The notes under the pieces were generated by a model, which worked only from the letters and a program-made list of their open reading frames with translations, made no database searches and was not told the DNA's origin. A DNA stretch of 64,000 nt from Bifidobacterium crudilactis (GTDB lineage: Bacteria > Actinomycetota > Actinomycetes > Actinomycetales > Bifidobacteriaceae), in assembly GCF_000738005.1 (NCBI RefSeq), contig NZ_JHAL01000002.1:1362634-1426633 (forward strand). The letters are read 5' to 3'. The translations under genes and the position numbers were made by a program. Shown piece after piece: positions 10,296 through 37,129 of the stretch (positions are counted from its first letter, which is position 1; each line of letters opens with the position of its first letter).

Positions 10296-10367
10296 AGATA
10301 ATTGCATCACCAGGACGGCTCTGCGACGAGATTATCGTCGTTTGCCGTCCTGGTGATGCAATTATCT
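10296..10367. repeat. Family 1 palindromic element, copy 1
   Basis: Perfect 24-bp inverted arms (10296-10319 and 10344-10367), outer end AGATAATTGCATCACC, around a 24-nt spacer that itself folds (GACGA/TCGTC). It sits between convergent genes (cysteine-rich protein and acetyltransferase) and would form a strong hairpin in either transcript. Confidence 0.9.
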
Positions 10368-10385
10368 GTTTGCGATGTGCACGCA

Positions 10386-11033
10386 TCACGACACGGCGGG
10401 CAATTCCAGACGGTCGGCCTCGGTGATGTCACGAATCACCCTGCACGGCACCCCTGCGGCCAGAACATTGGCCGGAATATCATGCGTCACCACGGCACCG
10501 GCTCCGATAACCGACCCCTCGCCAATGGTCACTCCGCCCGTCACCGTGACATTGCCGGCCAGCCAGCAGTTCGAACCGATGGTTATCGGAGCGCCGTATT
10601 CAAAGTCGAACATGCTGCCGTCACGGTGAGGACGAAGATTCCGTTCCTGCCATCTCAGCGGATGCAAGGGTGTGAGCAGCGATACATTCGGCCCGAACAT
10701 CACGTTGTCGCCCACTGTCACGGGGCAGACATCCAGGACCGTGATGTTGAAATTCGCGTAGACATTGTCTCCGAGAGTGGTGAATGCTCCGTAATCAAAG
10801 AATATCGGGCCGGTCAGCCAGACACCCTTGCCCCGATGCGGGAGCAGTCTGCTGAGGATCTCGTTTCTGCGTTCGCCCTCGGACTCGGCGCAAGCGTTGT
10901 AATCACGGCTCAGCTGATGGGCTTTCGCCAGCATACCGGCCACCTCGGGGTCGGACGGGTCGTATACCTCCCCCGCAATCATGCGTTCAAGCTGACTGCG
11001 CTCTGCAGTATCCGACCCTTGTCTATCTTCCAT
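10386..11033 (-). CDS. Hexapeptide-repeat sugar O-acetyltransferase (maltose/galactoside type)
   Basis: 215 aa. An N-terminal Mac domain (RMIAGEVYDPSDPEVAGML, ~15-60) is followed by a left-handed beta-helix of hexapeptide repeats (VTVGDNVMFGPNV, ITIGSNCWLAGNVTVTG, VTIGEGSVIGAGAVV). This is the Maa/LacA pattern, which transfers acetyl from acetyl-CoA to a sugar hydroxyl; the catalytic His lies in LLTPLHPL. Start at 11033 is chosen for AAGGAC a few bases upstream; an ATG at 11060 is also in frame. It is the paralogue of the next gene upstream, likely a tandem duplication that has diverged. Confidence 0.88.
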   Translation of the reverse strand: MEDRQGSDTAERSQLERMIAGEVYDPSDPEVAGMLAKAHQLSRDYNACAESEGERRNEILSRLLPHRGKGVWLTGPIFFDYGAFTTLGDNVYANFNITVLDVCPVTVGDNVMFGPNVSLLTPLHPLRWQERNLRPHRDGSMFDFEYGAPITIGSNCWLAGNVTVTGGVTIGEGSVIGAGAVVTHDIPANVLAAGVPCRVIRDITEADRLELPAVS

Positions 11034-11127
11034 CTGCCGTCCTTCTTTCATCTCGTTCAAATTCCTGACTCATTTAGCGCATTCGCACATCTTCGAAAAC
11101 ACCCATCGCTGTTGTGTATGCGCCCTC

Positions 11128-11769
11128 TCATGCAGTGGCATCGCGAGCGCCGATGCGCTCCAGGTAACCGGTCTTCTCCGACTCATCAATCCGTTTGATC
11201 ACGCGGGCCGGGTTGCCCACCGCAACGGCGTTTTCCGGAATATCCCTGGTCACCACCGACCCCGCTCCCACAACCGAACCGCTGCCGATACGCACTCCTT
11301 CGAGCACGATCACATGTCCGCCCAGCCATACGCCATCGCCGATTTCGATTGGTTGTGCACGGCATGCGCCATTGATGCGTTCTTTCATGTCAAGCGCATG
11401 GTTGGTGGCGAACAGACCGACCTTCGGCTCAATCCAGACGTTGTCGCCGAGGGTTACCGGTGCGTTGTCAAGAATCGCGCAATCGTAGTTGATATGCACA
11501 TTGGACCCGATGGAGATGTTGCAGCCCAGCTCGCACCGGAAATTCGGCTTGATGACGACACCGTCACCGACATGCTGCAGCAGTTCTCTGAGAATCCGCT
11601 GCTGCTGTTCGGGGTGATCGTAGCCGAGCCGATTGTATTCGGTGAACAGTCGCTCCGAACGCAACCTTGCCGCATCGATGTCCGGGTGCGTGTCCTGATA
11701 GACCTCCCCCGCAATCATGCGAGCCCACTCTTCTTTCCCGGTTGCCGTCATGTCGTCGGTGATGTCCAT
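11128..11769 (-). CDS. Second hexapeptide-repeat sugar O-acetyltransferase
   Basis: 213 aa, same architecture as its downstream neighbour: Mac domain (RMIAGEVYQDTHPDIDAARL) and beta-helix (GCNISIGSNVHINYD, VTLGDNVWIEPKVG, IEIGDGVWLGGHVIV), with catalytic His in FATNHALD. The C-terminus VAVGNPARVIKRID is the standard acetyl-CoA-binding end. GGGAGGACC lies directly before the ATG. The two genes are on one strand with 94 bp between, so they may be co-transcribed. The sugar substrate is unknown. Confidence 0.88.
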   Translation of the reverse strand: MDITDDMTATGKEEWARMIAGEVYQDTHPDIDAARLRSERLFTEYNRLGYDHPEQQQRILRELLQHVGDGVVIKPNFRCELGCNISIGSNVHINYDCAILDNAPVTLGDNVWIEPKVGLFATNHALDMKERINGACRAQPIEIGDGVWLGGHVIVLEGVRIGSGSVVGAGSVVTRDIPENAVAVGNPARVIKRIDESEKTGYLERIGARDATA

Positions 11770-11820
11770 GGTCCTCCCGTGAAGCTTCGATGCTCGGCAC
11801 GAAAACCGAGGCGTCAGTTA

Positions 11821-11836
11821 TTGTACATCCGTACAA
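11821..11836 (-). promoter_or_regulatory. Palindromic operator candidate before the acetyltransferase
   Basis: TTGTACATCCGTACAA is a 6-bp dyad with a 4-nt spacer, overlapping AT-rich promoter-like sequence (TATATTGTAC on the minus strand), about 52 bp before the start. TetR-type repressors often use such sites, but no regulator gene adjoins. Confidence 0.4.
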
Positions 11837-11937
11837 TATACAACACCGTCGCCTCGAAAGGAACCCGGAAACGGCAGTGTCGGTAAGTACCCTCTCGACG
11901 AAGCGCCGGGGCCTGCCCCCCCCCACACATACACGAA

Positions 11938-11972
11938 TGCCACCATCCACATTGAAATCCGGGATGGTGGCA
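11938..11972 (-). terminator. Hairpin downstream of the DUF4854 lipoprotein gene
   Basis: TGCCACCATCC (11938-11948) pairs perfectly with GGATGGTGGCA (11962-11972), 20 bp past the lipoprotein stop. No strong U-run follows; a run of nine C lies at 11916-11924. Confidence 0.6.
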
Positions 11973-11992
11973 CAGAAAAGGGCACCGACAGC

Positions 11993-12520
11993 TCACTGCG
12001 AGGCGAAGTCCCTGCTGGTGATGGTGGTGCCTGCGGAATCACGGTAAATCACGCGAACCACGGGATTGTCGACCTCCACAGCGCTTTTCATCATGGTGGC
12101 AATCGACTGGAAGGTGGATGCCTGTCCATCCAGACCTGAATTCAGCTTGTCCGCAAGCCCTGCAGTCGAAGCCGACATGCCGGCAGGGAGCGTGAAGTCA
12201 TACACCAAGGCATTATCCTCGCCTCTGACATCCAGAGTCATGCCGCCGGATTCCGCCTGGGACTTGACGCTGGCGAGCTGACTCTGCACTTCGCTCGACT
12301 GCACGTACTCATCAATCGACGCATATTTGCCGCTCGAAGCGGTCGAGCTCTTCTTGTCGCTCGAACTGGTCTGCGGAGTGGCGGTCTTTGTGGTCTGTGA
12401 CGAGCTCTGCTTCGGCGTGCTCTCCTCCGCGCTGTTCGACGACCCGCAAGCCGCCAGCGACAGCGTCAGGCACAATGACAGCACACCTGCCCCAACCATG
12501 CTAATGACATTTTTCTTCAC
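11993..12520 (-). CDS. DUF4854 family lipoprotein
   Basis: 175-aa predicted lipoprotein. The signal peptide ends in the lipobox LAAC (Cys at ~25), followed by a Ser/Thr/Lys-rich linker (~30-65) and a DUF4854 domain (~65-175, starting YASIDEYVQSSEVQSQL and ending VVRVIYRDSAGTT). Proteins of this type are common, uncharacterised surface lipoproteins of bifidobacteria and other Gram-positives. It is monocistronic with a hairpin behind it. No function can be assigned. Confidence 0.82.
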   Translation of the reverse strand: MKKNVISMVGAGVLSLCLTLSLAACGSSNSAEESTPKQSSSQTTKTATPQTSSSDKKSSTASSGKYASIDEYVQSSEVQSQLASVKSQAESGGMTLDVRGEDNALVYDFTLPAGMSASTAGLADKLNSGLDGQASTFQSIATMMKSAVEVDNPVVRVIYRDSAGTTITSRDFASQ

Positions 12521-12699
12521 GTTCTTCTCCTTGTTTTCCCCAACTACGTTCAGGCAACTTTACACAACGCAATCTCAAAATCCAAAAGCTTACTAGATTT
12601 TCATAGCCCGAGGAGACCTTCAAGAAGCCCCTTTGCCGTCCGCAAACGCAGTCCTTTCCGGCGGCCTGGCATCGAGCCGGAGCTCTCGCCCGCTAACAC
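12521..12699. other. Non-coding stretch upstream of the lipoprotein gene
   Basis: About 180 bp that should hold the lipoprotein promoter. It ends in a segment at about 12676-12700 (GAGCTCTCGCCCGCTAACAC) that is repeated before family 1 copy 3 at 22151-22166. No gene was seen. Confidence 0.4.
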
Positions 12700-12772
12700 A
12701 GATAGCTACTTCACCAGGACGGCAATTCCGGCCAATACGATATGAAAAGCTGTACTTGTGATGCAGTTATCT
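12700..12772. repeat. Family 1 palindromic element, copy 2 (degenerate)
   Basis: Arms 12700-12723 and 12749-12772 have the family pattern (AGATAGCTACTTCACC and the end GTGATGCAGTTATCT) but with several mismatches. It abuts the stop codon of the metal ATPase, so it lies at that gene's 3' end. Confidence 0.75.
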
Positions 12773-14781
12773 CACTTTCGAGGATGATTCAACCGTTTCT
12801 CTCGTCCGGGTATGAGTCGCGCGGAGTTCAGTATGAAGGCAGACTCGCTCCCGACATGCACGATTGCGGAAAGCAACGGCGTCAGAATACCGAATGCCGC
12901 CAATATCATGCCAAGCACGTCGACGATGATGGTGCCGGCGAAGTTGAACATGATGATTCCACGAGCCCGACGTGCAGTGAACAGCAGCGAGGTCACGTCG
13001 TTGATGTCGGAGCTTATGAGAATCACATCGGCACTCTCCCGGGCTATGTCGGTACCGCTGCCCATAGCTATACCCACGTCGGCGAGCGCAAGAACCGGGG
13101 CGTCATTAACCCCATCCCCGACCATTGCCACGCGATGACCGGCCCCCTTCTCCTGTTTCAGCAAAGCCGCCTTGTCTTCAGGCAGCAGCTCCGCGTGGGC
13201 ATGCCGGATGCCCAGCTGCCGGGCCGCGGCAACCGCGACCTCCTCACGGTCCCCGGTCAGCATGATGACTCGAACACCGTGGCTGTGCAGCGAAGCAATC
13301 GCATCGGCCGCATGCTCTCGTAGAGCGTCAGCCAACAGGATGCGACCTATGTATCGTCCGTTCCGGGAAATATAGACGCTGCTCTGCGCGTCAAGAGCAT
13401 CGCTCATTGAATCGCTTGACCAGGCCGAGGGGTTTTGCATATCCGATACGGTCGCCGCGCCACCAACCCCTTCCTCATCAATTTGCGGCATGAAGCTTCT
13501 CGTCCCCGCAACGATTGCCATCCCTTCGACCGTGCAGCGAACTCCACGTCCGGCAACGCTCTCGAAGTGCTCCACTGCATGGATGCCGACCTTGTGCGCA
13601 GCCGCGTACCGAACGATGGCCTTGCCCAGAGGATGTTCGGAGTAGGACTCCGCCGATGCAGCCACCGCGAGCAGCTCAGACTCATCGACACCTGTTGCAG
13701 CGATAACCCGCGTGACCTCGGGTGCGCCGGATGTGAGCGTCCCCGTTTTATCGAAGATCACCGTATCAACCTTGGACAGGCTTTCCATATGCAGACCGTC
13801 TTTGACGAATGCGCCTCTTCTCGCCACACGTGCCATGGATGCCAGCATCGCCAAAGGAGTGCCCGCTACCACTCCGCACGATCCGGCGACGATGATGACC
13901 GATATGGCGCTACGCACATCACCGGTCAAGAACCATGTGACGACAGCTCCGACGACGGCGATGAGCACCAATGCCGTTGCCAGCGTGTCTGCAAGTCTCT
14001 GCACGGGAGCCGACGAGGATTGCGCATCGGCTAGCGCTCGGACGATACGACCGTATGAGGAATCCTCACCGACTTGCAAAACCTCTATTTCGAGCGCTCC
14101 GTCCTGATTGACAGACCCGGAATACACCGCACTGCCCACATCATGGTAGACCGGCATGGACTCACCGGTGATTCTCGACTCGTCCACATTGGATGCGCCT
14201 GCAATGACGATGCCGTCGACAGGAATCCGCCCACCTGGCGCCACAACGACGACTTGACCGGGATGTATCCGGGAAAGCGGCACGTTTCCGGTCTTCGATT
14301 CGTCAATCCTCACCCGTACCCGATCAGGGAGGAATGACATCAAATCGGACAATGCGTCCTTGCCTTGCCACATACACAGATCTTCGAGTATCTCTGCCAG
14401 CAGCACGAACACCACGATCACCAGGGATGTCAGCCACTGACCAATCGCCGCGGCCGCAACGATGGCGATGAGCATCGAGAGGTCCATGCTCATTTTTCTG
14501 GCACGAAGATCCTCCCAGGACCCCTTCACGATCGGCCAGCATCCAATGACCAAGCCGACGACCGTGCACGACACCGTCAAACGCAATGTCCATGTCGGGT
14601 TCGCCACGGCGAGCTGAATGATGGCGACCGTCACGGTCAGCGCCAGGACCGCCGCCACGCGAAACAGGTCAGCGCGTTCTATACGCCGAAACAGTGTGGA
14701 CGCGGCGAAGGCGGAATCAGCATCCCCCGAAGCCGTGGAATGCGCCGCTGCGCTATTTGCCGTCTGCGCATGCTCAGTCAT
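12772..14781 (-). CDS. Heavy-metal P1B-type ATPase with unusual metal-site motifs
   Basis: 669-aa efflux pump. Present: actuator motif RITGESMP, phosphorylation site DKTGTLT, SEHPLGKAIV (the P1B His-Pro), and GDGVNDAPVLALADVGIAMG. No N-terminal HMA domain. The transmembrane metal site normally carries CPC, CPH or SPC; here the aligned residues are GSC (AGSCGVVAGTP), with Ser in place of the invariant Pro. The last helix pair reads HVGSESAFILNSARL, resembling the HEG-type motif of the P1B-4 (Co/Zn/Fe) branch. Start at 14781 overlaps the arsR-type gene by 8 bp, so both form one operon. Confidence 0.88.
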   Translation of the reverse strand: MTEHAQTANSAAAHSTASGDADSAFAASTLFRRIERADLFRVAAVLALTVTVAIIQLAVANPTWTLRLTVSCTVVGLVIGCWPIVKGSWEDLRARKMSMDLSMLIAIVAAAAIGQWLTSLVIVVFVLLAEILEDLCMWQGKDALSDLMSFLPDRVRVRIDESKTGNVPLSRIHPGQVVVVAPGGRIPVDGIVIAGASNVDESRITGESMPVYHDVGSAVYSGSVNQDGALEIEVLQVGEDSSYGRIVRALADAQSSSAPVQRLADTLATALVLIAVVGAVVTWFLTGDVRSAISVIIVAGSCGVVAGTPLAMLASMARVARRGAFVKDGLHMESLSKVDTVIFDKTGTLTSGAPEVTRVIAATGVDESELLAVAASAESYSEHPLGKAIVRYAAAHKVGIHAVEHFESVAGRGVRCTVEGMAIVAGTRSFMPQIDEEGVGGAATVSDMQNPSAWSSDSMSDALDAQSSVYISRNGRYIGRILLADALREHAADAIASLHSHGVRVIMLTGDREEVAVAAARQLGIRHAHAELLPEDKAALLKQEKGAGHRVAMVGDGVNDAPVLALADVGIAMGSGTDIARESADVILISSDINDVTSLLFTARRARGIIMFNFAGTIIVDVLGMILAAFGILTPLLSAIVHVGSESAFILNSARLIPGREKRLNHPRK

Positions 14782-15238
14782 GATGGTCCTCGCTGTCAGG
14801 TGTGTCGGAGGCCTTAAGCGTCTGAGACGGAGCACCAGATGGAGCGGCGTCATCACGGCCATCCGCCGCACCACCGTTCCCCGCCGGGGCGCGATGATGC
14901 TCAGGGAAGGCATCGACAATGTGCTCCGCTTGGTAGATTGCCTGATCCACCAAGGCACTCACATGCTCATCGGCCAGACGGTAGAACACCCGTGTGCCCT
15001 CATGCCTTGTCGTCACGAGTTGTCCGGTCCGCATTTTCGCCAGATGTTGCGATATCACGGTCAGTCGTCTGCACAGACGGTCGGCGATTTGCCCGACGGG
15101 GAGCTCTCCATCCTTGAGGGCGAGGACGATTCTCAGTCTGGTCGGATCTGACAGCAGAGAGAAGATGGTGGCGGCAAGATCGACATAACCGTTGTCCTCC
15201 CCGTAATCGACTATATGCATATCTGCGAACATACGCAT
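14774..15238 (-). CDS. ArsR/SmtB-family metal-responsive repressor
   Basis: 154 aa. Winged helix at residues ~20-85 (ATIFSLLSDPTRLRIVLALK, recognition helix around RRLTVISQHLAKM) followed by a helix ending DEHVSALVDQAIYQAEH and a His/Asp-rich tail (SEDHHD) that could bind metal. Proteins of this sort (CzrA, NmtR, CmtR) repress adjacent P1B ATPases until metal binds. Translationally coupled to the ATPase. Start is uncertain: ATG at 15238 lies inside the operator-like dyad, ATG at 15220 just after its centre; neither has a clear ribosome site. Confidence 0.88.
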   Translation of the reverse strand: MRMFADMHIVDYGEDNGYVDLAATIFSLLSDPTRLRIVLALKDGELPVGQIADRLCRRLTVISQHLAKMRTGQLVTTRHEGTRVFYRLADEHVSALVDQAIYQAEHIVDAFPEHHRAPAGNGGAADGRDDAAPSGAPSQTLKASDTPDSEDHHD

Positions 15239-15240
15239 AT
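15213..15240. promoter_or_regulatory. Likely ArsR operator
   Basis: ATATGCATAT (15213-15222) and ATACGCATAT (15231-15240) form a 10-bp dyad with one mismatch and an 8-nt spacer, matching the imperfect inverted repeats bound by SmtB/ArsR proteins. It overlaps the gene's 5' end. Confidence 0.6.
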
Positions 15241-15284
15241 ATTACGCAGCATTTCTCATTGTTGTCCAGCAACAACTCGGAAAA

Positions 15285-15400
15285 CGGTTGTGCAGGAATC
15301 ACGGCGCGAGTGTCACTGTGCCGAAAACACGGTGCACGACCACGGTACGGAAACCACCGGGTGAAGGCTACCGCGAAAAATCACCCTGCCTGAATCGCAT
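15285..15400. repeat. Possible decayed family 2 repeat
   Basis: CGGTTGTGCAGGAAT at 15285-15299 and GGAAACCACCGGG near 15346-15358 resemble parts of the family 2 element at 61709-61822. The far inverted end is not clear. The rest of the 15241-15498 gap shows no gene. Confidence 0.35.
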
Positions 15401-15498
15401 CTGTTCGACTCCGACAAATCCGACACCAGTCGCCACAGAGGGACAAGGCGACCGCCGTAACGTGCAGTCCCCACAGAGGAACAACGGACAATCTCGCA

Positions 15499-16554
15499 TT
15501 AAGCGGCTTTTGCTTCACCGGCTTCATGACAACCGCAGGATTGGCGAATCACAAAGCCGAATGGAGCAATCTGCGCATCGTCACAGTCGTCAGGATGCAG
15601 CGCGGCGGCCACTGCAAGCTTGGCTATCATCACCGGGTCCTGTTGAATCGTCGTAATCTGCGGCCACGCATAGAGCGTGTCCACCGTTCCGTCGAAAGAG
15701 ATCAGCGCCATGTCATCGGGAACGCACAATCCACGCTCATGCAAAGCGCGGAGCGCCCCTACCGCTTCCAGATCGGAGCCAGCAAACAGGGCGGTGGGTC
15801 GTTGGTCATCCGGCAAGTCAAGCAACCGGAGCGTTTGTTCATATCCGCCACTTCTGGTGAATGAGGTCTGATATATCGGTCCCGTAGCCAGCCCGGCACG
15901 TTGATGGGCCGTCGACCAACCCTGTATTCGAGCGTCTCCGTACTGAGAACCGTCACCTCCGAACAGCATCGCCATTCGCCGATGGCCGTGTGCGATCAGA
16001 TGTTCGGTAGCCATCTGCGCCGCCGCCTCAAAATCAGAACCCACGGATTTGAAACCCGGAACAGGCTCCGGATGGTCAAGAAACACGAAATTGACGCTTG
16101 GCCTCCTCATCGTCGCCAAATCAATGGCCTTCATGGCAAATGAGGCGAGAATGGCATCCACATCCCTGGACACGAGTTTTGCTATGCATTCCTTTTCCTT
16201 GTCGGGGTCGCCGTGGGAACAGAGGAATATCGTCGAATACCCCTCACCCGAGGCTTCATCCTCCAGGGCATCGGCCATCGCCGCAAAATAGGTGTTGGAA
16301 AAATCCGGAATAATGATGCCGAGCATTCTCGGCGATCCGCGTTTCAGCGCTCTCCCAAGTGAACTGGGGCGGTAATTGAGCTTTTCCACGGCATCATAGA
16401 TGCGTTGTGCGGTCGACTCCGAGACTTTGTTGGGCACATGGTTCAGAACGTAGCTCACGGATGCCGTGGAAACATTCGCCAATCGCGCGACATCTTCGCG
16501 CGTGACACGTCCGCTTTTAGCACTTCCTGCCGGACGCCCTCCCTCAGCACTCAT
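15499..16554 (-). CDS. LacI-family transcriptional regulator of the alpha-galactoside locus
   Basis: 351 aa. LacI helix-turn-helix at residues ~17-60 (TREDVARLANVSTASVSYVL with hinge RPSSLGRALKR), then a periplasmic-binding-like sugar sensor (~70-345: LGIIIPDFSNTYFAAM, ATEHLIAHGHRRMAML). It probably binds a galactoside effector and controls the divergent transporter and alpha-galactosidase genes. Start at 16554 has GGAAGGCGG upstream. The C-terminal end has two near-adjacent cysteines (SCGC). Confidence 0.92.
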   Translation of the reverse strand: MSAEGGRPAGSAKSGRVTREDVARLANVSTASVSYVLNHVPNKVSESTAQRIYDAVEKLNYRPSSLGRALKRGSPRMLGIIIPDFSNTYFAAMADALEDEASGEGYSTIFLCSHGDPDKEKECIAKLVSRDVDAILASFAMKAIDLATMRRPSVNFVFLDHPEPVPGFKSVGSDFEAAAQMATEHLIAHGHRRMAMLFGGDGSQYGDARIQGWSTAHQRAGLATGPIYQTSFTRSGGYEQTLRLLDLPDDQRPTALFAGSDLEAVGALRALHERGLCVPDDMALISFDGTVDTLYAWPQITTIQQDPVMIAKLAVAAALHPDDCDDAQIAPFGFVIRQSCGCHEAGEAKAA

Positions 16555-16634
16555 ACCGTATCCGCCTTCCCGCAGCATTCCAATCACCCAAGGATATAAC
16601 TCCAGTCTTTTACTTTTACGTATAACCATAGGGG

Positions 16635-16659
16635 AAATGAACAATTAAAGTGTTCATTT
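16635..16659. promoter_or_regulatory. Operator candidate between lacI-type gene and sugar ABC operon
   Basis: AAATGAACA and TGTTCATTT are perfect 9-bp arms with a 7-nt spacer, in the divergent promoter region. The plus-strand promoter may be TTGCAG...TAAGCT at about 16695-16725. The dyad lacks the central CG typical of many LacI sites. Confidence 0.45.
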
Positions 16660-16803
16660 ATTGGTATTTCAACAAATTCATCCTCCCTCATTGCAATTTG
16701 CAGCATATTGGTTACTCGTGTAAGCTATGGCTATCGGATGCAGAAGGAACTTCATCCGCGTCAGGGGACACAGTCCCCGGAGCATCTTCGCAAAGGAGCA
16801 TAG

Positions 16804-18057
16804 ATGAACAAGGTAGGGAAGATTATCAGTGCCGCATGCTGCGCATCCATGTTGTTCGGCATGGCCGCCTGTGGCGGAAGCGACAGCTCGTCCGGAGAGG
16901 TAAAACTGGAATTTCTGACCGGCATGGCGACGGGTTCCGCACAGCTCAAGGCGATGACCACAGTGGTCAACGCCTTCGAAAAGGAGAACCCGACGGTCAA
17001 AGTCACACTGGTGCCAGGCACCAGTTCATATGAATCGGATCTCAAGGTCCGCCTCGCTGGCAGGAACGCCCCCGACCTGTGGAACACCCACGGATGGAGC
17101 CGCGACCGGTATGCCGACTTCCTCGAGCCGCTGCAGGGTCGTTCATGGGCCAAGAACATGAGCAGCGTCATCGACACCGCCATCCGCAAGGACGACAAAT
17201 CCTTCTACGCACTCCCGCTCGACGTGGCCGTCACCGGCATCATCTACAACACCACCGTCCTCGACAAAGCAGGCGTCGACCCGAAAACCATCACCTCGTG
17301 GGATGATTTCGATGCCGCCTGCCAGAAGGTCGTCGCCACAGGAGCGAACTGTCTCGCAGCCTCGGGCAAGGACAACTGGACCGTGGGCAATATCGCCGAC
17401 TACACCGCTTCGGGCATGTACACCGAAGCACAGCTCAAGGAACTCAAGAGCGGGAGCTTTGATTCCGCCGCCTATGAGAAAGCCGTAACCCCGATCTATC
17501 AGTGGGCGAGAAACAAGTACTTCAACGTCGACTACACCTCCGCCACCGCCGATGACGTCGCCAAGCTCGCCGCAACAGACAAAGTCGGCTTCGTCATCCA
17601 GCCCAACAGCTTCGTGCAAAGCGTGGAATCATACAGCGCCGATGCCAAGCTGGGTGTGATGCCGATTCCTTCAGCTGTCGGAGATCCGTATCTGGTCACA
17701 GGCGAGGATTATGCCATCGGAGCCTCCAAAACAGGGAAGAACAAGGAGACAGCCCTCAAACTCATCGATTTCATGGCCGAGCCCGAGAACATGAAGACGC
17801 TTTCGGATACCACCGGCAACGCTCCTGCAATATCCGGGGTGGAAGCCAACATCGGACAGTTGGCGGACACCTACAACTACTGGGTCGAAGAGAAGAAGAC
17901 CCAAACCTACCCGATCTTCGACCGCGTATATCTGCCGAATGGCATGTGGAACACCCTGTGCACCACCACGGACGGACTCCTGACAGGCCAGAGCGACCCC
18001 GGCAATGCGGCAGCGCAAATGAAGACATCCTTCGAGAGCTTGTACGGCCAGTCCTGA
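16804..18057 (+). CDS. Sugar ABC transporter substrate-binding lipoprotein
   Basis: 417-aa family 1 extracellular solute-binding protein. A signal peptide with lipobox MAAC (Cys at ~23) anchors it outside the cell. The mature protein has the usual VKLEFLTGMATGSAQLKAM start, PDLWNTHGW early and a hinge around FYALPLDVAVTGIIYN. With the two permeases and alpha-galactosidase, its ligand is most likely raffinose-type alpha-galactosides or melibiose. AAAGGAG lies before the ATG. No ATPase gene is present, so a shared MsmK-type ATPase encoded elsewhere is expected. Confidence 0.92.
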   Translation: MNKVGKIISAACCASMLFGMAACGGSDSSSGEVKLEFLTGMATGSAQLKAMTTVVNAFEKENPTVKVTLVPGTSSYESDLKVRLAGRNAPDLWNTHGWSRDRYADFLEPLQGRSWAKNMSSVIDTAIRKDDKSFYALPLDVAVTGIIYNTTVLDKAGVDPKTITSWDDFDAACQKVVATGANCLAASGKDNWTVGNIADYTASGMYTEAQLKELKSGSFDSAAYEKAVTPIYQWARNKYFNVDYTSATADDVAKLAATDKVGFVIQPNSFVQSVESYSADAKLGVMPIPSAVGDPYLVTGEDYAIGASKTGKNKETALKLIDFMAEPENMKTLSDTTGNAPAISGVEANIGQLADTYNYWVEEKKTQTYPIFDRVYLPNGMWNTLCTTTDGLLTGQSDPGNAAAQMKTSFESLYGQS

Positions 18058-18093
18058 TGACGACGCCGACAATGCACAGCGGAAGACCCAACA

Positions 18094-19005
18094 ATGAATA
18101 GCACACGCAACCCCGCCGCCCGTAAATCCGGGCGGCGGCCCCTTCATGGGGCAGGTATCAACCTCTTCTATGTACCGGCACTACTGATTCTGATTCTGTT
18201 CACGGTATGGCCGTTACTGTCCGGAATCCAGCTGTCCTTCACCAACTGGGACGGGTACTCACCGACCAAGCTCTTCGTCGGACTCAGCAACTACGTGACG
18301 ATGTTCAAGGACCATAACTTCGCCACCGTACTGGTGAACACCCTGATCTACGGCGTGGGCAGCACCATCGTCCAGCAGGTGATCGGTCTCGCGTTGGCGT
18401 TGCTGCTCAATACCAAGATCAAGGGCCGCAACATCATGAGGGCCGTCATCTACCTCCCCGCACTTGTTTCCGCGGTCATCATGGGCACCATGTACTACTT
18501 CGTGTTCCAATACCAGCAAGGTGCGCTCAATACCATGATGGTCGCCCTGGGACTCCCCCGCGTCGTATGGTTCGACAAGCCTGCTGTTTCCGTGGCAATC
18601 ATCGTCATCGTCAATTCCCTGCAATATGTGGGTGTCTCCATGATCATCTATCTTGCGGGACTTCAGGGTATGGATCAATCGGTGGTCGAAGCGGCCGACC
18701 TTGATGGCGCCTACGGGTGGAAGAAATTCAAGAGCATCACCCTGCCCCTGCTGATGCCGGCATTCTCGACCAGCGTGGTTCTCAACCTCATCGGCGGTCT
18801 CAAACTCTTCGATGTGATTCAGGTGCTGACCGGCGGCGGTCCAGGCTACTCGACCAATTCGGTATCCACATACATCGGACTGACATATTTCAGCAATCAG
18901 AACGCCGGTTATGCCTCGGCGATGGGAGTCGTCCTCTTCATCATCATCGCCATCGCGACGACACTGCTCAACAAAGGCCTTGACCGCCTTGGATGGGAGT
19001 CATGA
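18094..19005 (+). CDS. Sugar ABC transporter permease 1 (MalF/UgpA type)
   Basis: 303 aa with six predicted membrane helices. The CUT1 permease EAA loop is seen as EAADLDGAYGWKKFKSITLP (about residues 205-225), which docks onto the ATPase. The N-terminus LLILILFTVWPLLSGIQLSF is typical for this family. It follows the binding protein by 36 bp and precedes the second permease by one base. Confidence 0.93.
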   Translation: MNSTRNPAARKSGRRPLHGAGINLFYVPALLILILFTVWPLLSGIQLSFTNWDGYSPTKLFVGLSNYVTMFKDHNFATVLVNTLIYGVGSTIVQQVIGLALALLLNTKIKGRNIMRAVIYLPALVSAVIMGTMYYFVFQYQQGALNTMMVALGLPRVVWFDKPAVSVAIIVIVNSLQYVGVSMIIYLAGLQGMDQSVVEAADLDGAYGWKKFKSITLPLLMPAFSTSVVLNLIGGLKLFDVIQVLTGGGPGYSTNSVSTYIGLTYFSNQNAGYASAMGVVLFIIIAIATTLLNKGLDRLGWES

Positions 19006-19006
19006 C

Positions 19007-19876
19007 ATGACATCGTCAACATCGAGCGCTTCTGGACCACGTGCACGAGGTGCGGCAGGTCGCCGAGTAGGACGGACGCTCACCTACATCTTCCTCGGCA
19101 TCATGATTCTGGTGCAGTTGCTGCCATTCTGGCTCGCCTTGTGCGCAGCCAGCAAACCATCGACCGATATGTCATCGACGTTGGTGCCGCGCCTGCATGA
19201 CATCGCCTGGGACAACTTCGCCACGGCCATCACCCAGGGAGGGATTCTCTCTGCCGTAGGCAACAGCGCCATCGTGACCCTGTGCTCGACCATACTGGTA
19301 TGTATTTGCGGCGCCGCCGCGGCGTATCCTCTGGCGCGGCGCAAAACGCGCGGCAACAAGCTGGTGTCGGCCGGAATCATGTCGCTGATGATGGTTCCGC
19401 CACTCAGCATCCTCGTTCCGCTGTACACGCTGATGGTCAATACCGGCGGGGTCAACACCAGATGGGGTGTGGTCCTGGTCACCGTTGCGGGGAATCTTCC
19501 CCTGGCGATCTTCCTCTACACGGCATTCATCAAAGCCGTTCCCGAATCCATCGACGAGGCAGGCATGATCGACGGGGCGAACAGGCTGACGATCTTCTTC
19601 AAACTCATCCTGCCCATGCTCAAACCCGTGACCGCCACGGTCGTCATCATGACCAGCGTGGGCGTCTGGAATGAATACGCGCTTTCGAACTACCTGATCA
19701 GCGATCCAAGCAAACAGCTGGTCGCGCCCCGCGTCGCATCGTTCTTTGCCATGCAAAGCAGCAATCTCGGCGTGGGCGCGGCGTCCGCGCTTATTGCGGC
19801 GCTGCCGATTGTGATTGTGTACCTGTTCCTCCAGCGATACTTCATCGCAGGAATGGCCGCAGGAGCCGAGAAATAA
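19007..19876 (+). CDS. Sugar ABC transporter permease 2 (MalG/UgpE type)
   Basis: 289 aa, six membrane helices, EAA loop IDEAGMIDGANRLTIFFKLI (~180-200). The start at 19007 lies one base after the upstream stop, indicating coupling; a longer frame beginning at 18911 would overlap the first permease and is discarded. It pairs with the preceding permease to form the membrane channel. Confidence 0.93.
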   Translation: MTSSTSSASGPRARGAAGRRVGRTLTYIFLGIMILVQLLPFWLALCAASKPSTDMSSTLVPRLHDIAWDNFATAITQGGILSAVGNSAIVTLCSTILVCICGAAAAYPLARRKTRGNKLVSAGIMSLMMVPPLSILVPLYTLMVNTGGVNTRWGVVLVTVAGNLPLAIFLYTAFIKAVPESIDEAGMIDGANRLTIFFKLILPMLKPVTATVVIMTSVGVWNEYALSNYLISDPSKQLVAPRVASFFAMQSSNLGVGAASALIAALPIVIVYLFLQRYFIAGMAAGAEK

Positions 19877-19895
19877 CCACAGCTCTCACCACACC

Positions 19896-19930
19896 GCGCG
19901 GGTCGTCCAAGAACGCTGGCCGACCCGCGC
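19896..19930 (+). promoter_or_regulatory. Intercistronic stem-loop between permease and alpha-galactosidase
   Basis: GCGCGGGTCG (19896-19905) pairs perfectly with CGACCCGCGC (19921-19930). It lacks a U-run and lies within the operon, so it could partly terminate or protect the upstream transporter mRNA. Confidence 0.6.
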
Positions 19931-19954
19931 ATCAATTCTCAAAGGAAACACCAC

Positions 19955-22114
19955 GTGCTATTCCCAAACACCGAAGACAACACAGAAACAACCCGAATCA
20001 TTCTGGCAGACGCACACCAAGGGGACCTGCTCCCCGAGATCATCGCCGTCCTGCCCGCAAGCTCACCGGAGGCGTTCAGACATGTCTCCTCTGCCAAGCC
20101 GCTCTCACTAACCTCGGCATCACCATCGTTGAGAGTCCCGCGCCTGCTCAACGAGGAATCGGACGGCTCACTGGCCCGCCCCAGCATCCGCGGCCATCGC
20201 ATCGTCACCACGTCAAGCGCAAACGGTGAAACCGTTACGGCAAGCAGCTGTTGGAGTCCGCATTTCATTCTCAACAAGGATATCCGGGAGCAGGGCGGAC
20301 GACTGTCCATCGAGGCCACCGACACCGAATCCGGTTTGCGGTTGAAGACCGAAATCGAAGGGCTGCCGGGTGGTTCGTTGCGCATGCGCCACATCCTGAC
20401 GAATGAACAACCGGGGATATACGCTCTTGAATCATTGGAGATCCGCATTCCCCTAAGTGACGCTCAGACCGAATGCATGGATTTTACAGGTCGACACGAA
20501 AAGGAACGCAGCCCGCAACGTCACGACATCAAGGATGGCACGTGGCTGCGTGAGCAACGCAGAGGAAAACCCGGATACGAAGGCAATATGCTGATCGCCG
20601 GAACACCCGGATTCGATTTCTCAAGCGGACAGGTCGTTGCCATGCAACCTGCATGGAGCGGCAACTCCATCCTCGCCGTCGATCGCTCGAGTGAAGACGT
20701 CGCCAGTCTGAACGCCGGAGAGCTGCTTCTTCCCGGTGAAATGCAATTGGCCGAAGGTGAGAGCTATACCACCCCGTGGGTCATCGTCACGGCCTCCGAC
20801 CATGGATTGGACGGCATCGCCCAATCGTTGCACACATGGCAACGCAGTCTGCCCTTGCACCCCCAGCAACAGCCGGTAACCCTGAACGTCTGGGAAGCCG
20901 TGTACTTCGACCATGACTTCGATCACTTGGCAAGCCTGGCGAAGAAAGCGTCGTGCATTGGTGTCGAACGATTTGTGCTGGATGATGGATGGTTCCATTC
21001 CAGGCGTGATGATCACGCTGGTCTAGGTGACTGGTGGGTCGATCCGGCGGTCTGGCCGGATGGGCTGCGCCCCCTTATCGATCTTGTGCATGGATACGGC
21101 ATGCAGTTCGGCCTGTGGTTTGAACCGGAAATGGTCAATCCTGATTCGGACCTGTACCGTGCTCACCCTGATTGGGTGATGAAAGCCGCCAACAGAGAGC
21201 CGATGCTGCACCGACATCAGTTCGTACTCGATCTGAGCAATCCTCAAGCCTACGAGCACATTCTCACGCAAATCAGCAGAGTACTCGAGGAGAACCCCGT
21301 CGACTATGTGAAATGGGATCACAACCGGGATCTGCTCGAAGGAGGCTCACCCTCAGCCGGATTCCGCCCGGCGGTCCATGACCAGACACTCGCCTATTGG
21401 AAGCTGCTGGAGGACCTGCATCAGCGCTTCCCCGATATCGCATGGGAGTCCTGTGCAAGCGGAGGCGGGCGCATAGACCTGGGAGTCATCGAACGCGTGT
21501 CGCGTTTCTGGTCTTCGGACATGACCGATGCCCTCAGCAGACAGCAAATCCAGGAGTGGCTGGTCCAGAATGTCGCGCCGGAGTATTTGGGGGCGCACAT
21601 CTCCGCACCGACCTCGCATCAGAGCGGACGAAGCTACAGCCTCGCTTTCCGTGCCGCGACCGCGGTATTCTACGGTTTCGGCATCGAGTGGAATCTCGGC
21701 GAGGCCTCATCGGACGATCTCGACGAACTCGCCAAGTGGATCGACTGGTACAAGACTCATCGCACAGCTTTGCACAGCGGCCGTCATGTACGTATCGATG
21801 TGGCCGATCCGTCGGTTCTCGCATACGGTTCGGTTGCCACCAATGGAAAGGGCGCCCTGATCGCCCATGTGCAATACGAGGAATCGGCATCCAATCGCGG
21901 CATGTGGCTTCGTATACCGGGTCTGGACCCAGTGGGTACCTTCGCGTTGAACTGGACCGGGCCCGAACCGGCATCAGCTTCGTTGGAGGAGCTCAACCCA
22001 GCCGGACCCACCAACGGGCAGCCGGTAAGCGGAGCGTTCCTGTCAAGGATAGGCGTATGGATTCCACGCTGCCGGCCGGAAACAGCACGCGTGATTGAAA
22101 TCACCCGTATCTGA
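19955..22114 (+). CDS. GH36 alpha-galactosidase
   Basis: 719 aa, a standard length for GH36. N-terminal beta-sandwich (1-~310), central TIM barrel (~320-640) and C-terminal beta domain. Catalytic features: DYVKWDHNRD contains the nucleophile Asp, and RFWSSDMTDALSR the acid/base Asp; VERFVLDDGWFHSRRDD and ESCASGGGRID are further family blocks. It hydrolyses terminal alpha-1,6 galactose of raffinose, stachyose or melibiose, in the cytoplasm (no signal peptide). Start is GTG at 19955 with AAAGGAA upstream. It completes the uptake operon. Confidence 0.95.
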   Translation: MLFPNTEDNTETTRIILADAHQGDLLPEIIAVLPASSPEAFRHVSSAKPLSLTSASPSLRVPRLLNEESDGSLARPSIRGHRIVTTSSANGETVTASSCWSPHFILNKDIREQGGRLSIEATDTESGLRLKTEIEGLPGGSLRMRHILTNEQPGIYALESLEIRIPLSDAQTECMDFTGRHEKERSPQRHDIKDGTWLREQRRGKPGYEGNMLIAGTPGFDFSSGQVVAMQPAWSGNSILAVDRSSEDVASLNAGELLLPGEMQLAEGESYTTPWVIVTASDHGLDGIAQSLHTWQRSLPLHPQQQPVTLNVWEAVYFDHDFDHLASLAKKASCIGVERFVLDDGWFHSRRDDHAGLGDWWVDPAVWPDGLRPLIDLVHGYGMQFGLWFEPEMVNPDSDLYRAHPDWVMKAANREPMLHRHQFVLDLSNPQAYEHILTQISRVLEENPVDYVKWDHNRDLLEGGSPSAGFRPAVHDQTLAYWKLLEDLHQRFPDIAWESCASGGGRIDLGVIERVSRFWSSDMTDALSRQQIQEWLVQNVAPEYLGAHISAPTSHQSGRSYSLAFRAATAVFYGFGIEWNLGEASSDDLDELAKWIDWYKTHRTALHSGRHVRIDVADPSVLAYGSVATNGKGALIAHVQYEESASNRGMWLRIPGLDPVGTFALNWTGPEPASASLEELNPAGPTNGQPVSGAFLSRIGVWIPRCRPETARVIEITRI

Positions 22115-22162
22115 CATCGCTGCGACCTGTTGCAGCGGAAGGTGCCGGGCTCTCGCCAGCTA

Positions 22163-22243
22163 ACACAGATAACTGCATCACCGGGACGGCAATTCCGGCC
22201 AAAGTGGCACAAGAACCCGTCCTGGTGATGCAGTTATCTGTGT
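22163..22243. repeat. Family 1 palindromic element, copy 3
   Basis: Arms begin ACACAGATAACTGC and end GCAGTTATCTGTGT, with CACCGGGACGG against CCGTCCTGGTG inside, so the dyad is about 28 bp. It lies between the convergent alpha-galactosidase and MHS transporter genes. Its left flank and the internal GGCAATTCCGGCCAA are shared with copy 2. Confidence 0.9.
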
Positions 22244-22255
22244 TCAGTCGGAGAG

Positions 22256-23668: not shown

Positions 23669-23700
23669 GATAACCCTTCTGCTCGTGTAAAAACAAGAAC

Positions 23701-23718
23701 CATGACCCAACTGTCATG
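23701..23718. promoter_or_regulatory. Small dyad upstream of the MHS transporter
   Basis: CATGAC, six bases, GTCATG: a perfect inverted repeat 33 bp before the MHS start. Possible operator. The remaining 23719-23983 gap holds the divergent promoters; no further gene was seen. Confidence 0.3.
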
Positions 23719-23983
23719 ATGTACTCTCTGCTCAGGCGCTTCGTCCTTGTGGGAACCCGCTGGAGAGCGATACTACCACCACGCTGCCATATACTGAACG
23801 GCTTTCCACCATTCGAGCAAATATCTGAATTCCATATGTTTGCCGGTCACCGGCAGGACGCAAGAATTGCGTGAGAAGCACCGACACCACCGGCAAGACC
23901 TCAGAGGAGCTGCCGCGGACATCGGAAACATCGTCAGGACATTGCCGAACGCTTCGGAAACACAGCCATGTTTCAATATCGAC

Positions 23984-24622: not shown

Positions 24623-24637
24623 AAACGGTCGTCCAGA

Positions 24638-24710
24638 AGATAACTGCACTAAAAGGACAGCTTTTCAGAAGAATTATTACCGAATTGCTGTCCTTTTAGT
24701 GCAGTTATCT
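24638..24710. repeat. Family 1 palindromic element, copy 4
   Basis: Perfect 24-bp arms (24638-24661, 24687-24710) with ends AGATAACTGCACTAAAAGG and CCTTTTAGTGCAGTTATCT. It lies between convergent LysE and dehydrogenase genes and belongs to the AAAAGGACAGC subtype. Confidence 0.92.
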
Positions 24711-24723
24711 CGATCAAGCTCGA

Positions 24724-25518: not shown

Positions 25519-25580
25519 ATTGTTTCCTCTCTGTTCACTTCATTGGTACACCGCCGTATGCCGTCACGGGCACCCTACTG

Positions 25581-26906
25581 CTATAAGCCCAATTCCGAAA
25601 GCACGCCGTCGAGGATATCAATGCCCCTCTTGGCTTCCTCCGGGGTAATCACGCAAGGCGGCACCACATGGATGCGATTGTCATGCACATCGACCAGCAG
25701 ACCGGCATCCATCGCCTTGCTGTGAATCGCCGACATCGTCTCACCGTCAAGCATGTCCTTGCTTTTACGGTCAGCGACCATTTCAGCCACCCACATCACG
25801 CCCTTGCCTCGGACGTCACCGATATGCTCGTGCTTGCTTTTGAGGTCGTTGAGTCCGGCGGAAATGACGTCCTCTCCGACGCGATGAGCATTGCCGACGA
25901 TATCTTCCGCCTCCATCGCCTCCTGCGCCGCGACGATGGAAGCCATGGCCAGAGGATGGCCCGAGTAGGTGAGACCACCGGGGAACACCCGTTCATCGAA
26001 GCTGTGGGCAATCTCGTCGGAGAAAATCACTCCGCCTGCGGGCACGTATCCGGAGTTGCATCCCTTGGCGAAGGAGATGAGGTCGGGAACATAATCGAAG
26101 GCATCCAGTGCGAACCATTCACCGGTGCGCCCGAAACCTGCCATAACCTCGTCGGTAATCATCAGGATGCCGTATTTCCTGGTAATCTCACGAATACCCT
26201 TGAAATAGTCCTTTGGCGGCACCATGACACCCGCAGTCCCCGGAATGGATTCCAGCAGCACAGCGGCGATGGTGTCGGGACCTTCGAAACGAACCACCTG
26301 CTCGAAATGCTCCAAGGCGCGGGCGCATTCCTCATCTTCGGTCTGCGCGAAGAACGGGGAGCGATACAGATACGGCGTCATGATGTGCACATGTCCGCGC
26401 GAGAAGTCGTTCGGCTTCCTACGCCAATCGCCGGTGGCGGAGATGGCTGCTCCCGTGTTGCCGTGGTAGCTGCGGTAGGAGGAGATGATTTTGTCTCGGC
26501 CGGTGAACTGCCTGGCCGCCCGTATGGCGTTTTCATTCGCGTCCGCACCTGCGTTGGTGAAGAACACCTTGGAAAAGCCTTCGGGGGCACGCTTGGCCAC
26601 CAGGTTCGCGGCACGGCCACGCGCAAGGTTGGCATACCCCGGCCCCAGGGTGCACATCAGCTGTGACTGCTCAGCGATGCCCGCGAGCACTTTCGGATGC
26701 TGGTAGCCTATGTTCACATTCACCAACTGGCTGGTGAAGTCGAGATATTCCTTGCCTTCAGCATCCACCAGCGTGGACCCGTGGCCCGTCACGATTTCGA
26801 ACGGATGTATCTTCTTCTGCGCGCTCCAGGAATGGAACACATGGGCTCTGTCCAAAGCCACAGCGTCATCCCAAATCGCCGAATCCTCAGGAAATTCATG
26901 TCCCAT
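25581..26906 (-). CDS. Class III pyridoxal-phosphate aminotransferase
   Basis: 441 aa. The PLP-binding Lys lies in DLISFAKGCNSGYVPAGGV (about residue 270), with the Asp of ITDEVMAGFGRTGEWF upstream and SYHGNTGAA in the N-terminal half. The omega-aminotransferase family includes GABA, taurine-pyruvate and beta-alanine enzymes; the active-site phrase here resembles taurine or omega-amino acid:pyruvate types, but substrate is unproven. Its neighbours are an SDR and two amino acid or metabolite transporters, so a shared amino acid pathway is possible. Confidence 0.9.
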   Translation of the reverse strand: MGHEFPEDSAIWDDAVALDRAHVFHSWSAQKKIHPFEIVTGHGSTLVDAEGKEYLDFTSQLVNVNIGYQHPKVLAGIAEQSQLMCTLGPGYANLARGRAANLVAKRAPEGFSKVFFTNAGADANENAIRAARQFTGRDKIISSYRSYHGNTGAAISATGDWRRKPNDFSRGHVHIMTPYLYRSPFFAQTEDEECARALEHFEQVVRFEGPDTIAAVLLESIPGTAGVMVPPKDYFKGIREITRKYGILMITDEVMAGFGRTGEWFALDAFDYVPDLISFAKGCNSGYVPAGGVIFSDEIAHSFDERVFPGGLTYSGHPLAMASIVAAQEAMEAEDIVGNAHRVGEDVISAGLNDLKSKHEHIGDVRGKGVMWVAEMVADRKSKDMLDGETMSAIHSKAMDAGLLVDVHDNRIHVVPPCVITPEEAKRGIDILDGVLSELGL

Positions 26907-28820: not shown

Positions 28821-28830
28821 CTCCAAATTC

Positions 28831-33321: not shown

Positions 33322-33345
33322 GAAAGGACCCGCTATCGGTTATAT

Positions 33346-35181: not shown

Positions 35182-35269
35182 TCTCACTTGATTTTCTGTT
35201 ATGGTGCCTCCGCCTGTACGGAAGCGACGTTCGACATTCGGCGAACGCGAAGTGCGTCAGAGGTGCCGC

Positions 35270-36175
35270 CTAGAGCAGACCCGCCTGAAGCATGCCTTCC
35301 TCTGCCTTGTCGAGTTCCTTCGGACCCGGCTCGACATTCGGCAAACGCATTGCAGCCGTAGGGATATACCCTTTGATTTTGAGTGCGGCCTTGGCCATAA
35401 CCGCCTGATATCCGTCACCGTTCAACGCCTCGACGATCGGACTGAGGCGTTCGGCCAACTCCTGAGCCTTGCGGATATCGCCACGGTTGAAGGCCTGCAC
35501 CAGCTCTTGCATGGGCTTTGCCGCCACATGCGCCGTAACCGAAATGATGCCTACCGCTCCGATGGACAGGAAGGGCAGGAACAAACCGTCATCACCCGAA
35601 TACCAGGACAGTCCGGTCACCTTCCTTTTCTCGATGGCCGCCGTCAAATTGCCTGTGGCATCCTTGACAGCGCAAACACGCTCCAAGTCGGCCAACCTGC
35701 GATAGGTATCGAGGCTCACGTGCAGACCAGTACGTCCGGGAACGTCGTATATCACGATGGGCTTCTCGGCGACCGCATTGACCTGCTTGTAATGCTCCAC
35801 CACGCCGTTGGCAGAAGGTCGTGAATAGTATGGCATCACGATCAACAGGCCATCGGCACCGGCTTCCTGAGTCATTTCGGCCATGCGCACGGTATGGGCG
35901 GTGTCATTGGAACCCGCGCCTGAAATCACCGGCACATCCACCGCAGCCTTCACGGCCCTGACCAAGTCGACCTTCTCATCAAGATGCGTCACCGGGGACT
36001 CGCCCGTGGTGCCGTTCACCACGATGCCATCGGCCCCGTCGGCGACCAAATGTTGGGCCAGGGATGCCGCGGCATCGAAATCCACCGAGCCGTCGGCCCT
36101 CATCGGAGTAGCCATAGCAGGAAGGACGCGTCCGAAAGGAGCCGCGTCCAGCAGTTGCATCTCACCGTCACTCAT
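35270..36175 (-). CDS. dapA: 4-hydroxy-tetrahydrodipicolinate synthase
   Basis: 301 aa TIM-barrel lyase that condenses pyruvate with aspartate semialdehyde in lysine/diaminopimelate synthesis. NGTTGESPVT (about 50), VPVISGAGSNDT, the catalytic Tyr in VIYDVPGRTG, and the Schiff-base Lys in VCAVKDATGN are all present. Start chosen at the ATG at 36175, giving MSDGEMQLL; the frame continues to 36211 without support. It lies 75 bp after dapB. Confidence 0.95.
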   Translation of the reverse strand: MSDGEMQLLDAAPFGRVLPAMATPMRADGSVDFDAAASLAQHLVADGADGIVVNGTTGESPVTHLDEKVDLVRAVKAAVDVPVISGAGSNDTAHTVRMAEMTQEAGADGLLIVMPYYSRPSANGVVEHYKQVNAVAEKPIVIYDVPGRTGLHVSLDTYRRLADLERVCAVKDATGNLTAAIEKRKVTGLSWYSGDDGLFLPFLSIGAVGIISVTAHVAAKPMQELVQAFNRGDIRKAQELAERLSPIVEALNGDGYQAVMAKAALKIKGYIPTAAMRLPNVEPGPKELDKAEEGMLQAGLL

Positions 36176-36250
36176 ATATCTCAAGGTACTTCTGGGCTGA
36201 GACCAGAGCAAGTCATCCGAGGATTATTGGACAATCGCCGTATCGGAGCT

Positions 36251-36997
36251 TCATAGATCCAGGAAGGAGTCCAGACCTATCGTCAGACCGGCATGCTTGC
36301 CGGAGGCCACCTCCCGCACGGCCAGCATCACGCCAGGCATGAAGGAGGATCTGTCGAAACTGTCGGCACGGATGACCAGCTGCTCACCGGCATTGCCGAA
36401 CAGCACCTCCTCATGGGCGTTCAATCCGCGCAGCCGCACCGCGTGAACATGCACCCCATCAATGACCTGACCGCGTGAACCCCCGTCGCTTTGCGTGTTG
36501 TCAGGGACTTCGCCGAGCCCAGCTCTGCGACGGGCCGCGGCGATGCCTTCGGCTGTGTGAATGGCGGTTCCTGAAGGAGCGTCGACCTTGTCGGGGTGGT
36601 GCAGTTCGATGACCTCGGCGGATTCAAAATACTTCGCGGCGATACCGGCGAAATGATCGGCAAGCACCGCCGATATGGCGAAGTTCGGTGCGATGAACAC
36701 GCTGACCTCAGGGTGTTCGTCGAGCGCCCTGCGTACCTTGTCGAGTTTGTCGTCCGTCCAACCAGTGGTCCCGACCACGGTATTGACGCCTTGGCTTATC
36801 AACGCCAGCACATTATCTAAGGTCACCGAGGGAACGGTGAAATCGACCGCGACATCGGTGTTCTCCGGAGTGATAGCCGCCAGGTCGTCACCGGCATCCA
36901 CGCCTTTCGCGAATTCCATGCCCTCGGTGCCCTGCACCGTCTTCACCACATTGCCGCCCATACGTCCATGCGCACCGACCACCGACACACGTATCAT
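36251..36997 (-). CDS. dapB: 4-hydroxy-tetrahydrodipicolinate reductase
   Basis: 248 aa. NAD(P) loop VSVVGAHGRMG at the N-terminus, VVGTTGW, the catalytic region ELHHPDKVDAPSGTA with His and Lys, and a final FMPGVMLAVREV. It reduces the DapA product. Adjacent to dapA in the same direction, so lysine and cell-wall diaminopimelate steps are co-located. Start at 36997 (MIRVSVVGA) is the canonical one. Confidence 0.96.
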   Translation of the reverse strand: MIRVSVVGAHGRMGGNVVKTVQGTEGMEFAKGVDAGDDLAAITPENTDVAVDFTVPSVTLDNVLALISQGVNTVVGTTGWTDDKLDKVRRALDEHPEVSVFIAPNFAISAVLADHFAGIAAKYFESAEVIELHHPDKVDAPSGTAIHTAEGIAAARRRAGLGEVPDNTQSDGGSRGQVIDGVHVHAVRLRGLNAHEEVLFGNAGEQLVIRADSFDRSSFMPGVMLAVREVASGKHAGLTIGLDSFLDL

Positions 36998-37057
36998 TCC
37001 AAAGCTCCATCCACTCGACAACCATGACCAAATTCCACCATACAGCCCCCGAAACAG

Positions 37058-37129
37058 AGATAACTGCAATAAAAGGACAGCAATTCGGCATATTGTTGGC
37101 GAAAAAGCTATCCTTTTAGTGCAGTTATC
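37058..37129. repeat. Family 1 palindromic element, copy 5
   Basis: Arms 37058-37081 and 37107-37129 (AGATAACTGCAATAAAAGG and CCTTTTAGTGCAGTTATC) are near-perfect. It lies downstream of the GNAT gene and upstream of dapB, and belongs to the AAAAGGACAGC subtype with copy 4. Confidence 0.9.

Follow-up and report, generated by a model that had tools for sequence, protein, structure and literature searches.

The window analysed here, a 64,000-nucleotide stretch of the Bifidobacterium crudilactis genome (G000:C2:1362634-1426633; the 2.36-Mb genome itself is labelled G000), holds five copies of a palindrome that we call F1. This family of small, non-coding palindromic repeats belongs to the Bifidobacterium psychraerophilum group and is restricted to that lineage. 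Part of its copies predates the split of B. crudilactis and a sister species, and part has recently been copied as whole elements in B. crudilactis. The arms are homogenised within each species, and each copy remains nearly self-complementary at 72–73 bp. From the sequence features, we incline slightly towards F1 being a small mobile palindrome whose copies would be kept as two-way transcript-end signals, the arms being homogenised by copying or by an arm-reading factor.

A palindrome family at gene ends

F1 is 73 bp long and consists of two 24-bp arms (consensus AGATAACTGCACTAAAAGGACAGC) around a 25-nt loop. The arms contain an A-tract, a GC stem and a T-tract (AAAAGGACAGC...GCTGTCCTTTT) on both strands. 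The inner stem GGACAGC/GCTGTCC and the TTTTAG that follows it all lie inside the longer F1 stem. A strict two-arm pattern found 37 copies in the genome, against none with the reversed pattern, and a covariance model built from 20 copies gave at least 150 rows, both strands counted. Around known copies, stretches totalling 822 kb, the window among them, were selected and searched with a tolerance of 8 mismatches per arm. They hold 105 copies, of which 90 measure 73 bp and 15 measure 72 bp, and a second covariance model added five places outside the 822 kb. With at least 110 places in the genome, the palindromes are not confined to the window and form the genome-wide family that the first-pass annotation had suspected. 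Their length is constant at 72–73 bp in all 105 copies although the loops diverge. Next to 105 pairs, unpaired arms are rare, numbering 17 when up to 8 mismatches are allowed and 2 when up to 6 are, and outward extension of pairing past the arms is at chance level over the 105 copies. Seven copies with long common flanks (L041, L043, L062, L064, L072, L078 and L085) turned out to lie in seven copies of a long paralogous region with F1 behind each gene. The L062 paralog, the one protein of this set that was read, is a 1014-aa predicted cell-wall-anchored surface protein.

Gene positions were taken from a simple hexamer gene finder (645 genes in the stretches). None of the 105 copies lies inside a predicted gene; 44 are in convergent, 56 in tandem and 4 in divergent gaps, and one, at a stretch edge, is unplaced. 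Gaps of 80 bp or more that hold no element, taken from the same stretches, are distributed quite differently (38 convergent, 213 tandem, 65 divergent; p about 4e-12). The median distance from a copy to the nearest stop codon is 25 bp (n=100). Copies in tandem gaps lie a median of 31.5 bp from the upstream stop, where uniform placement would give ~104, and 0 of 10000 simulations gave a value as small. The location at gene 3′ ends reported for the window copies is thus found across the genome-wide set, with an enrichment between convergent genes.

The family has a narrow distribution. A first covariance search, run with stricter filters on 59 genomes (27 of the genus, 10 of the family, 22 of the order), gave matches in four, namely B. 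crudilactis itself, G004 (79 rows), G011 (2) and G018 (1), and no F1 in the other 55. A second search at E<=1e-4 gave 86 rows in G004 (~43 places, two strands each), 3 in G011 and 1 in G018, and none in the other 23 genus genomes. At E<=0.1, four places were obtained in G011 and one in G018, all five weak. Four of these are in neighbourhoods of G000 copies (L028, L029, L030, L277); the fifth, L278, has no match among the G000 stretches compared. DapB identity to B. crudilactis is 91% for G004, 80% for G011 and 73% for G018, and the nearest named relative by DapB is B. psychraerophilum (80%). The G004 stretches L095-L122 have 49% G+C against 58% in the window, a large shift given 91% identical DapB and colinear genomes. 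Phages and plasmids gave no match to the copy at 24638, and two F1 patterns found nothing in viral contigs. The paired-arm pattern found nothing in a broad genome-contig collection, from which the own and near genomes may be missing. The 9-base end motif is absent from all 70 DapB loci (L143-L212), and Rfam gathering thresholds returned a tRNA and no other RNA family. A literature search, with most subscription papers outside its reach, found no description of F1 or of the families F2 and F3 presented below.

Inherited sites, recent copying and homogenised arms

The B. crudilactis and G004 genomes are colinear at their common F1 sites. The first 315 kb of the G004 stretches contain 34 F1-like palindromes. 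Of these, 23 project to a point no more than 75 bp from a G000 copy, 2 to some other place, and 9 are without counterpart among the G000 stretches; stretches of both genomes were picked around copies, so that this shared-site proportion is not an unbiased rate. After one ambiguous case was dropped, 22 ortholog pairs were listed (L096:3996 also has more than one candidate). They include two window copies. The G004 site orthologous to 24638 holds F1 (L106:5001-5073) with an unlike loop (40%), and the ortholog of 37058 (L095:5001-5073) has a loop 88% identical. The first-pass annotation had named occupied orthologous sites as what would defeat the idea of dispersal, and for these 22 pairs such sites do exist.

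Arms and loops behave differently at these sites. Arm identity is 0.782 between orthologs and 0.769 between cross-species non-orthologs (permutation p 0.038), and paralogs reach 0.900 in G000 and 0.802 in G004. For the loops, identity is 0.497 between orthologs as compared to 0.416 between cross-species non-orthologs (permutation p 0.0001). Therefore, arms follow the species while loops follow the site. Departures from the consensus are also symmetric. In G000, 59 same-change doubles, 4 unlike doubles and 71 singles were counted, with 9.2 doubles expected if the arms varied independently; the 34 G004 copies showed 74, 7 and 39, respectively, with 29.9 doubles expected. In three pairs (L101/L048, L095/window 37058 and L107/L065), positions 19–21 differ on both arms and the loops are 80–88% identical.

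These observations bear on a rival explanation, that F1 copies are bound by a trans-acting protein, or an RNA, that reads both arms, protein and arm sequence changing together as a species 'dialect'. A protein-binding site is a possible role of F1. Arm homogenisation within species at shared sites, the three pairs with symmetric arm change, the constant length of all copies despite loop divergence and the lack of G-U preference reported below all agree with such a reader. No protein of this kind was identified, no search for one having been made, and the whole-element copying described next can homogenise arms without any binding factor. We regard this explanation as rather unlikely. Its more specific form, with a species-specific factor reading both arms at ~100 gene ends, factor and sites co-changing so that arms switch symmetrically while loops are kept, is to our judgement unlikely, and was lowered slightly because whole-element copying was shown.

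Copying is visible in the loops. In G000, loops differ at no more than 3 positions in 140 pairs of copies, of which 19 fall inside the seven-gene paralog set, and shuffled loops gave no such pair in 20 trials. Outside the paralog set, 38 of 98 copies have a near-identical-loop partner elsewhere. The largest network joins 39 copies, 7 of them from the paralog set and 12 bearing the tail described below; just 3 have a listed G004 partner at their site, and its loop is 33–52% identical. The loop of window copy 37058 is also nearly identical to that of a tail-bearing copy, L085:14524. Two G004 copies that lie 4.2 kb from each other agree at 71 of 73 positions, although the corresponding G000 copies differ from one another. 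The near-identical dispersed loops and this G004 pair therefore show that whole elements were copied. The dispersal proposed earlier thus applies to the 38 copies that share a near-identical loop with a copy elsewhere, and is tempered by the 22 G004 copies found at G000 copy sites.

Ordinary intrinsic terminators, alike by nothing but vertical descent and gene duplication, would account for the gene-end position and for the seven copies common to the regions around paralogous genes. We hold this very improbable. The arms are uniform behind unrelated genes, the near-identical loops at dispersed sites contradict it for a large part of the copies, and other hairpins in the same stretches vary in sequence.

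A ~40-nt tail (GGCTCTTCGCATTTTGGCGTGTAAGG...AATA) adjoins 20 copies. A hidden Markov model of the tail gave 20 matches with E no higher than 0.15, every one of them no more than 13 nt from an F1 copy, and none elsewhere in the 822 kb; one further match (E 0.2) covers unconserved sequence only. The outer 21 bases of the tail agree with the end of the sole ISL3-family insertion sequence (IS) at 17 of 21 positions, whereas 16 were reached by 10 of 100,000 shuffles. None of the 20 tail copies is at a listed shared site, as compared to 22 of the 85 others (Fisher p=0.011). Occupancy in G004 of syntenic copies (0 of 10 with tail, 22 of 41 others) is biased, the occupied ones all being in F1-selected stretches. 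When the G004 stretches were instead taken by predicted position, none of 8 tail copies and none of 12 others proved to be occupied; copies without a tail therefore show site differences as well. A two-ended ISL3 miniature inverted-repeat transposable element (MITE) was rejected, its second end not being found, and the tail as a promoter was dropped because its spacing varies between tail variants. PF01610 matches in 4 of the 27 genus genomes (G000, G011, G014, G018). In the part of the genome examined, no IS with F1 arms was seen, and the likeness to the ISL3 end is on one side only. As to the earlier suggestion that a transposase elsewhere spread the element, no transposase moving F1 was found; a 20-copy subset has the ISL3-like tail.

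Neutral, selfish MITE-like repeats, surviving or inserting at gene ends without a transcript-end role, would produce dispersed near-identical loops, the ISL3-like tail and the G000-specific sites. We consider them distinctly unlikely, given the stop-proximal placement within tandem gaps, the scarcity of copies in divergent gaps (4 of 104) and the near-perfect pairing that old copies retain while their loops diverge.

The reading that we favour, a mobile palindrome retained as a two-way transcript-end signal, would work as follows. The F1 hairpin reads alike on both strands and might act from either side to stop transcription or to protect RNA 3′ ends; with their A-tract, GC stem and T-tract, the arms would serve both strands, and such two-way action would let copies persist at gene ends. 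Newer copies would spread and overwrite older ones, making arms alike within a species, and arm-to-arm correction within the palindrome could aid this homogenisation. Given the ISL3-like end of the recent form, it may have been moved by a transposase of the ISL3 type. As for the bidirectional terminators invoked in the first-pass annotation, the position of F1 would fit that role. Hairpins other than F1 that have a T- or A-tract were counted in both kinds of gap: among convergent gaps, 6 of the 44 that hold F1 and 14 of the 50 that lack it contain one, and among tandem gaps 4 of 55 and 25 of 252, respectively. F1 gaps thus hold fewer ordinary hairpins of this type, though the difference is small.

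Several observations weigh against this reading. Ordinary T-/A-tract hairpins are nonetheless present in F1 gaps, and the F1 T-tract is short and located inside the stem. A terminator scan of window positions 9000-26000 reported no F1, its 3–8 nt loop limit excluding F1 by design. Tandem copies read in transcript orientation contain 8 G-U, 16 A-C and 14 other mispairs in 1288 pairs; with no G-U preference, there is no sign of selection on an RNA stem. The symmetric arm changes between copies with 80–88% alike loops are unexplained by whole-element overwriting alone. As to mobility, no second terminal repeat was found for the tail form, and no target duplication at the palindrome ends: over the 105 copies, direct repeats of 2–9 bp at these ends are at or near chance (3-bp repeats, 2 observed against 0.9 expected). 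Finally, G004 carries F1 without a PF01610 match.

The five window copies and other palindromes

All five palindromes first reported in the window are confirmed at their positions (Table 1).

Table 1. F1 copies in the window; arm-to-arm mismatches were counted over 24 bp.
Feature	Position	Strand	Description
F1 copy	10296..10367	.	72 bp, perfect 24-bp arms (0 mismatches), rarer ATCACC type
F1 copy, degenerate	12700..12772	.	6 arm mismatches, ATCACC type; end overlaps P-type ATPase stop codon
F1 copy	22167..22239	.	ATCACC type, 2 arm mismatches; pairing extends outward to 22162-22244
F1 copy	24638..24710	.	consensus type, perfect arms (0 mismatches)
F1 copy	37058..37130	.	3 arm mismatches

Their described uniformity is true of four copies, with 0–3 arm mismatches, and fails for the one at 12700, which is absent from the list of 12 inverted repeats in the window. 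RNA folding z-scores range from -3.2 (12700) to -13.0, far stronger than shuffles. The shared outer motif is likewise partial: AGATAACTGCA is exact in 6 of the 10 in-register arms, while AGATAATTGCA stands on both arms of 10296 and AGATAGCTACT on the left arm of 12700, and C is the first base in the right arm of 37058. At up to one mismatch, AGATAACTGCA has 10 matches in the window, 9 of them inside copies, whereas 100 shuffles gave 0.51 on average. The common core GGACRGC is confirmed, being present in all five left arms. Three copies had been placed between convergent genes. This holds for 22167 (alpha-galactosidase and sugar-transporter genes) and 24638 (LysE and SDR genes), and for 10296 only if the small open reading frame 9932-10279, without Pfam match, is a real gene. 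The two remaining copies lie between tandem genes, directly behind the P-type ATPase gene (12700) and, between GNAT and dapB, directly behind the GNAT gene (37058).

Other palindromes occur alongside F1. F2 (AAACTGTGC...GCACAGTTT) has 9 copies in G000, 14 in G004 and none in the 25 other genus genomes; F3 (GTGTAGGGATT...AATCCCTACAC) has 40 strict copies, 62 and none, respectively, and no target duplication was found for it. F2 (AACTGTGC...GCACAGTT) is mostly 64 bp and is found at L062:3075-4950, L032:12556-12720, L105:889-1440 and elsewhere. It is built of constant ends and GCACG motifs with a variable but self-complementary middle, sometimes in short series ~93 bp apart. At 12 clean G004 sites without the F1 that G000 has there, 3 hold F3 and 1 holds F2, which suggests that gene-end palindromes are exchangeable in the group. 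The window itself has an F3 copy between tandem genes at 57720-57833 (TTGTGTAGGGATT...AATCCCTACACAA). A separate palindrome at 61877-61918, with 20-bp arms, a 2-nt loop and a GGGGCCTGACCGTGCA core, looks like a single terminator hairpin. A fourth type (TTCATTGTGAACTTGTC...GACAAGTTCACAATGAA, ~100 bp) occurs in G018, G014 and B. aquikefiri, located at L258, L260, L183 (adjoining dapB), L139:17406-17509 and L142:18306-18404.

Comparison with known systems

F1 allows site descent, whole-element copying and arm homogenisation to be separated within one repeat family. The persistence of small intergenic palindromes at gene ends thereby becomes testable in terms of termination, a binding protein or copying.

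The resemblance to repetitive extragenic palindromic (REP) elements, as described in the portions of PMC3733652 and PMC2817692 available to us, lies in repeated intergenic palindromes at ~100 copies per genome. On these grounds, a REP/REPIN family moved by a REP-associated tyrosine transposase (RAYT, Y1 type) was considered. It was ruled out by PF01797 (Y1_Tnp), which has no match in the 27 genus genomes, the own included, as compared to 5 of 14 control genomes; REP-type mobility, as first envisaged, therefore did not survive, and we give it almost no weight. Moreover, F1 is 73 bp against 20–40 bp for REP, and its arm consensus lacks the GTAG or CGTC tag that REP elements carry at one end (PMC3733652, in the portion available).

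Like MITEs, F1 is short, non-coding, dispersed and copied to new sites. SPRITE, as far as the accessible part of PMC10969869 describes it, is likewise a small dispersed non-coding repeat with a terminator-like hairpin. F1 differs by its lack of target duplication and of a parent IS bearing its arms in the DNA examined, and by the species-wise homogenisation of its arms at shared sites; it is set apart from SPRITE by description.

The DNA uptake sequences of Neisseriaceae (consulted sections of PMC3630211) also form lineage-specific 'dialects' and inverted pairs in terminator-associated hairpins. F1 arms are instead 24 bp long, at fixed spacing and almost never single, whereas many single copies beside inverted pairs characterise uptake sequences.

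Like intrinsic terminators, F1 stands directly behind genes. The bidirectional rho-independent terminators of B. breve UCC2003 are operon-end hairpins too, two-way when poly-A precedes the stem; the accessible text of PMC5746004 presents them as GC-rich stem-loops followed by poly-T and describes no shared-sequence family. Unlike them, F1 has its A- and T-tracts inside a 24-bp stem.

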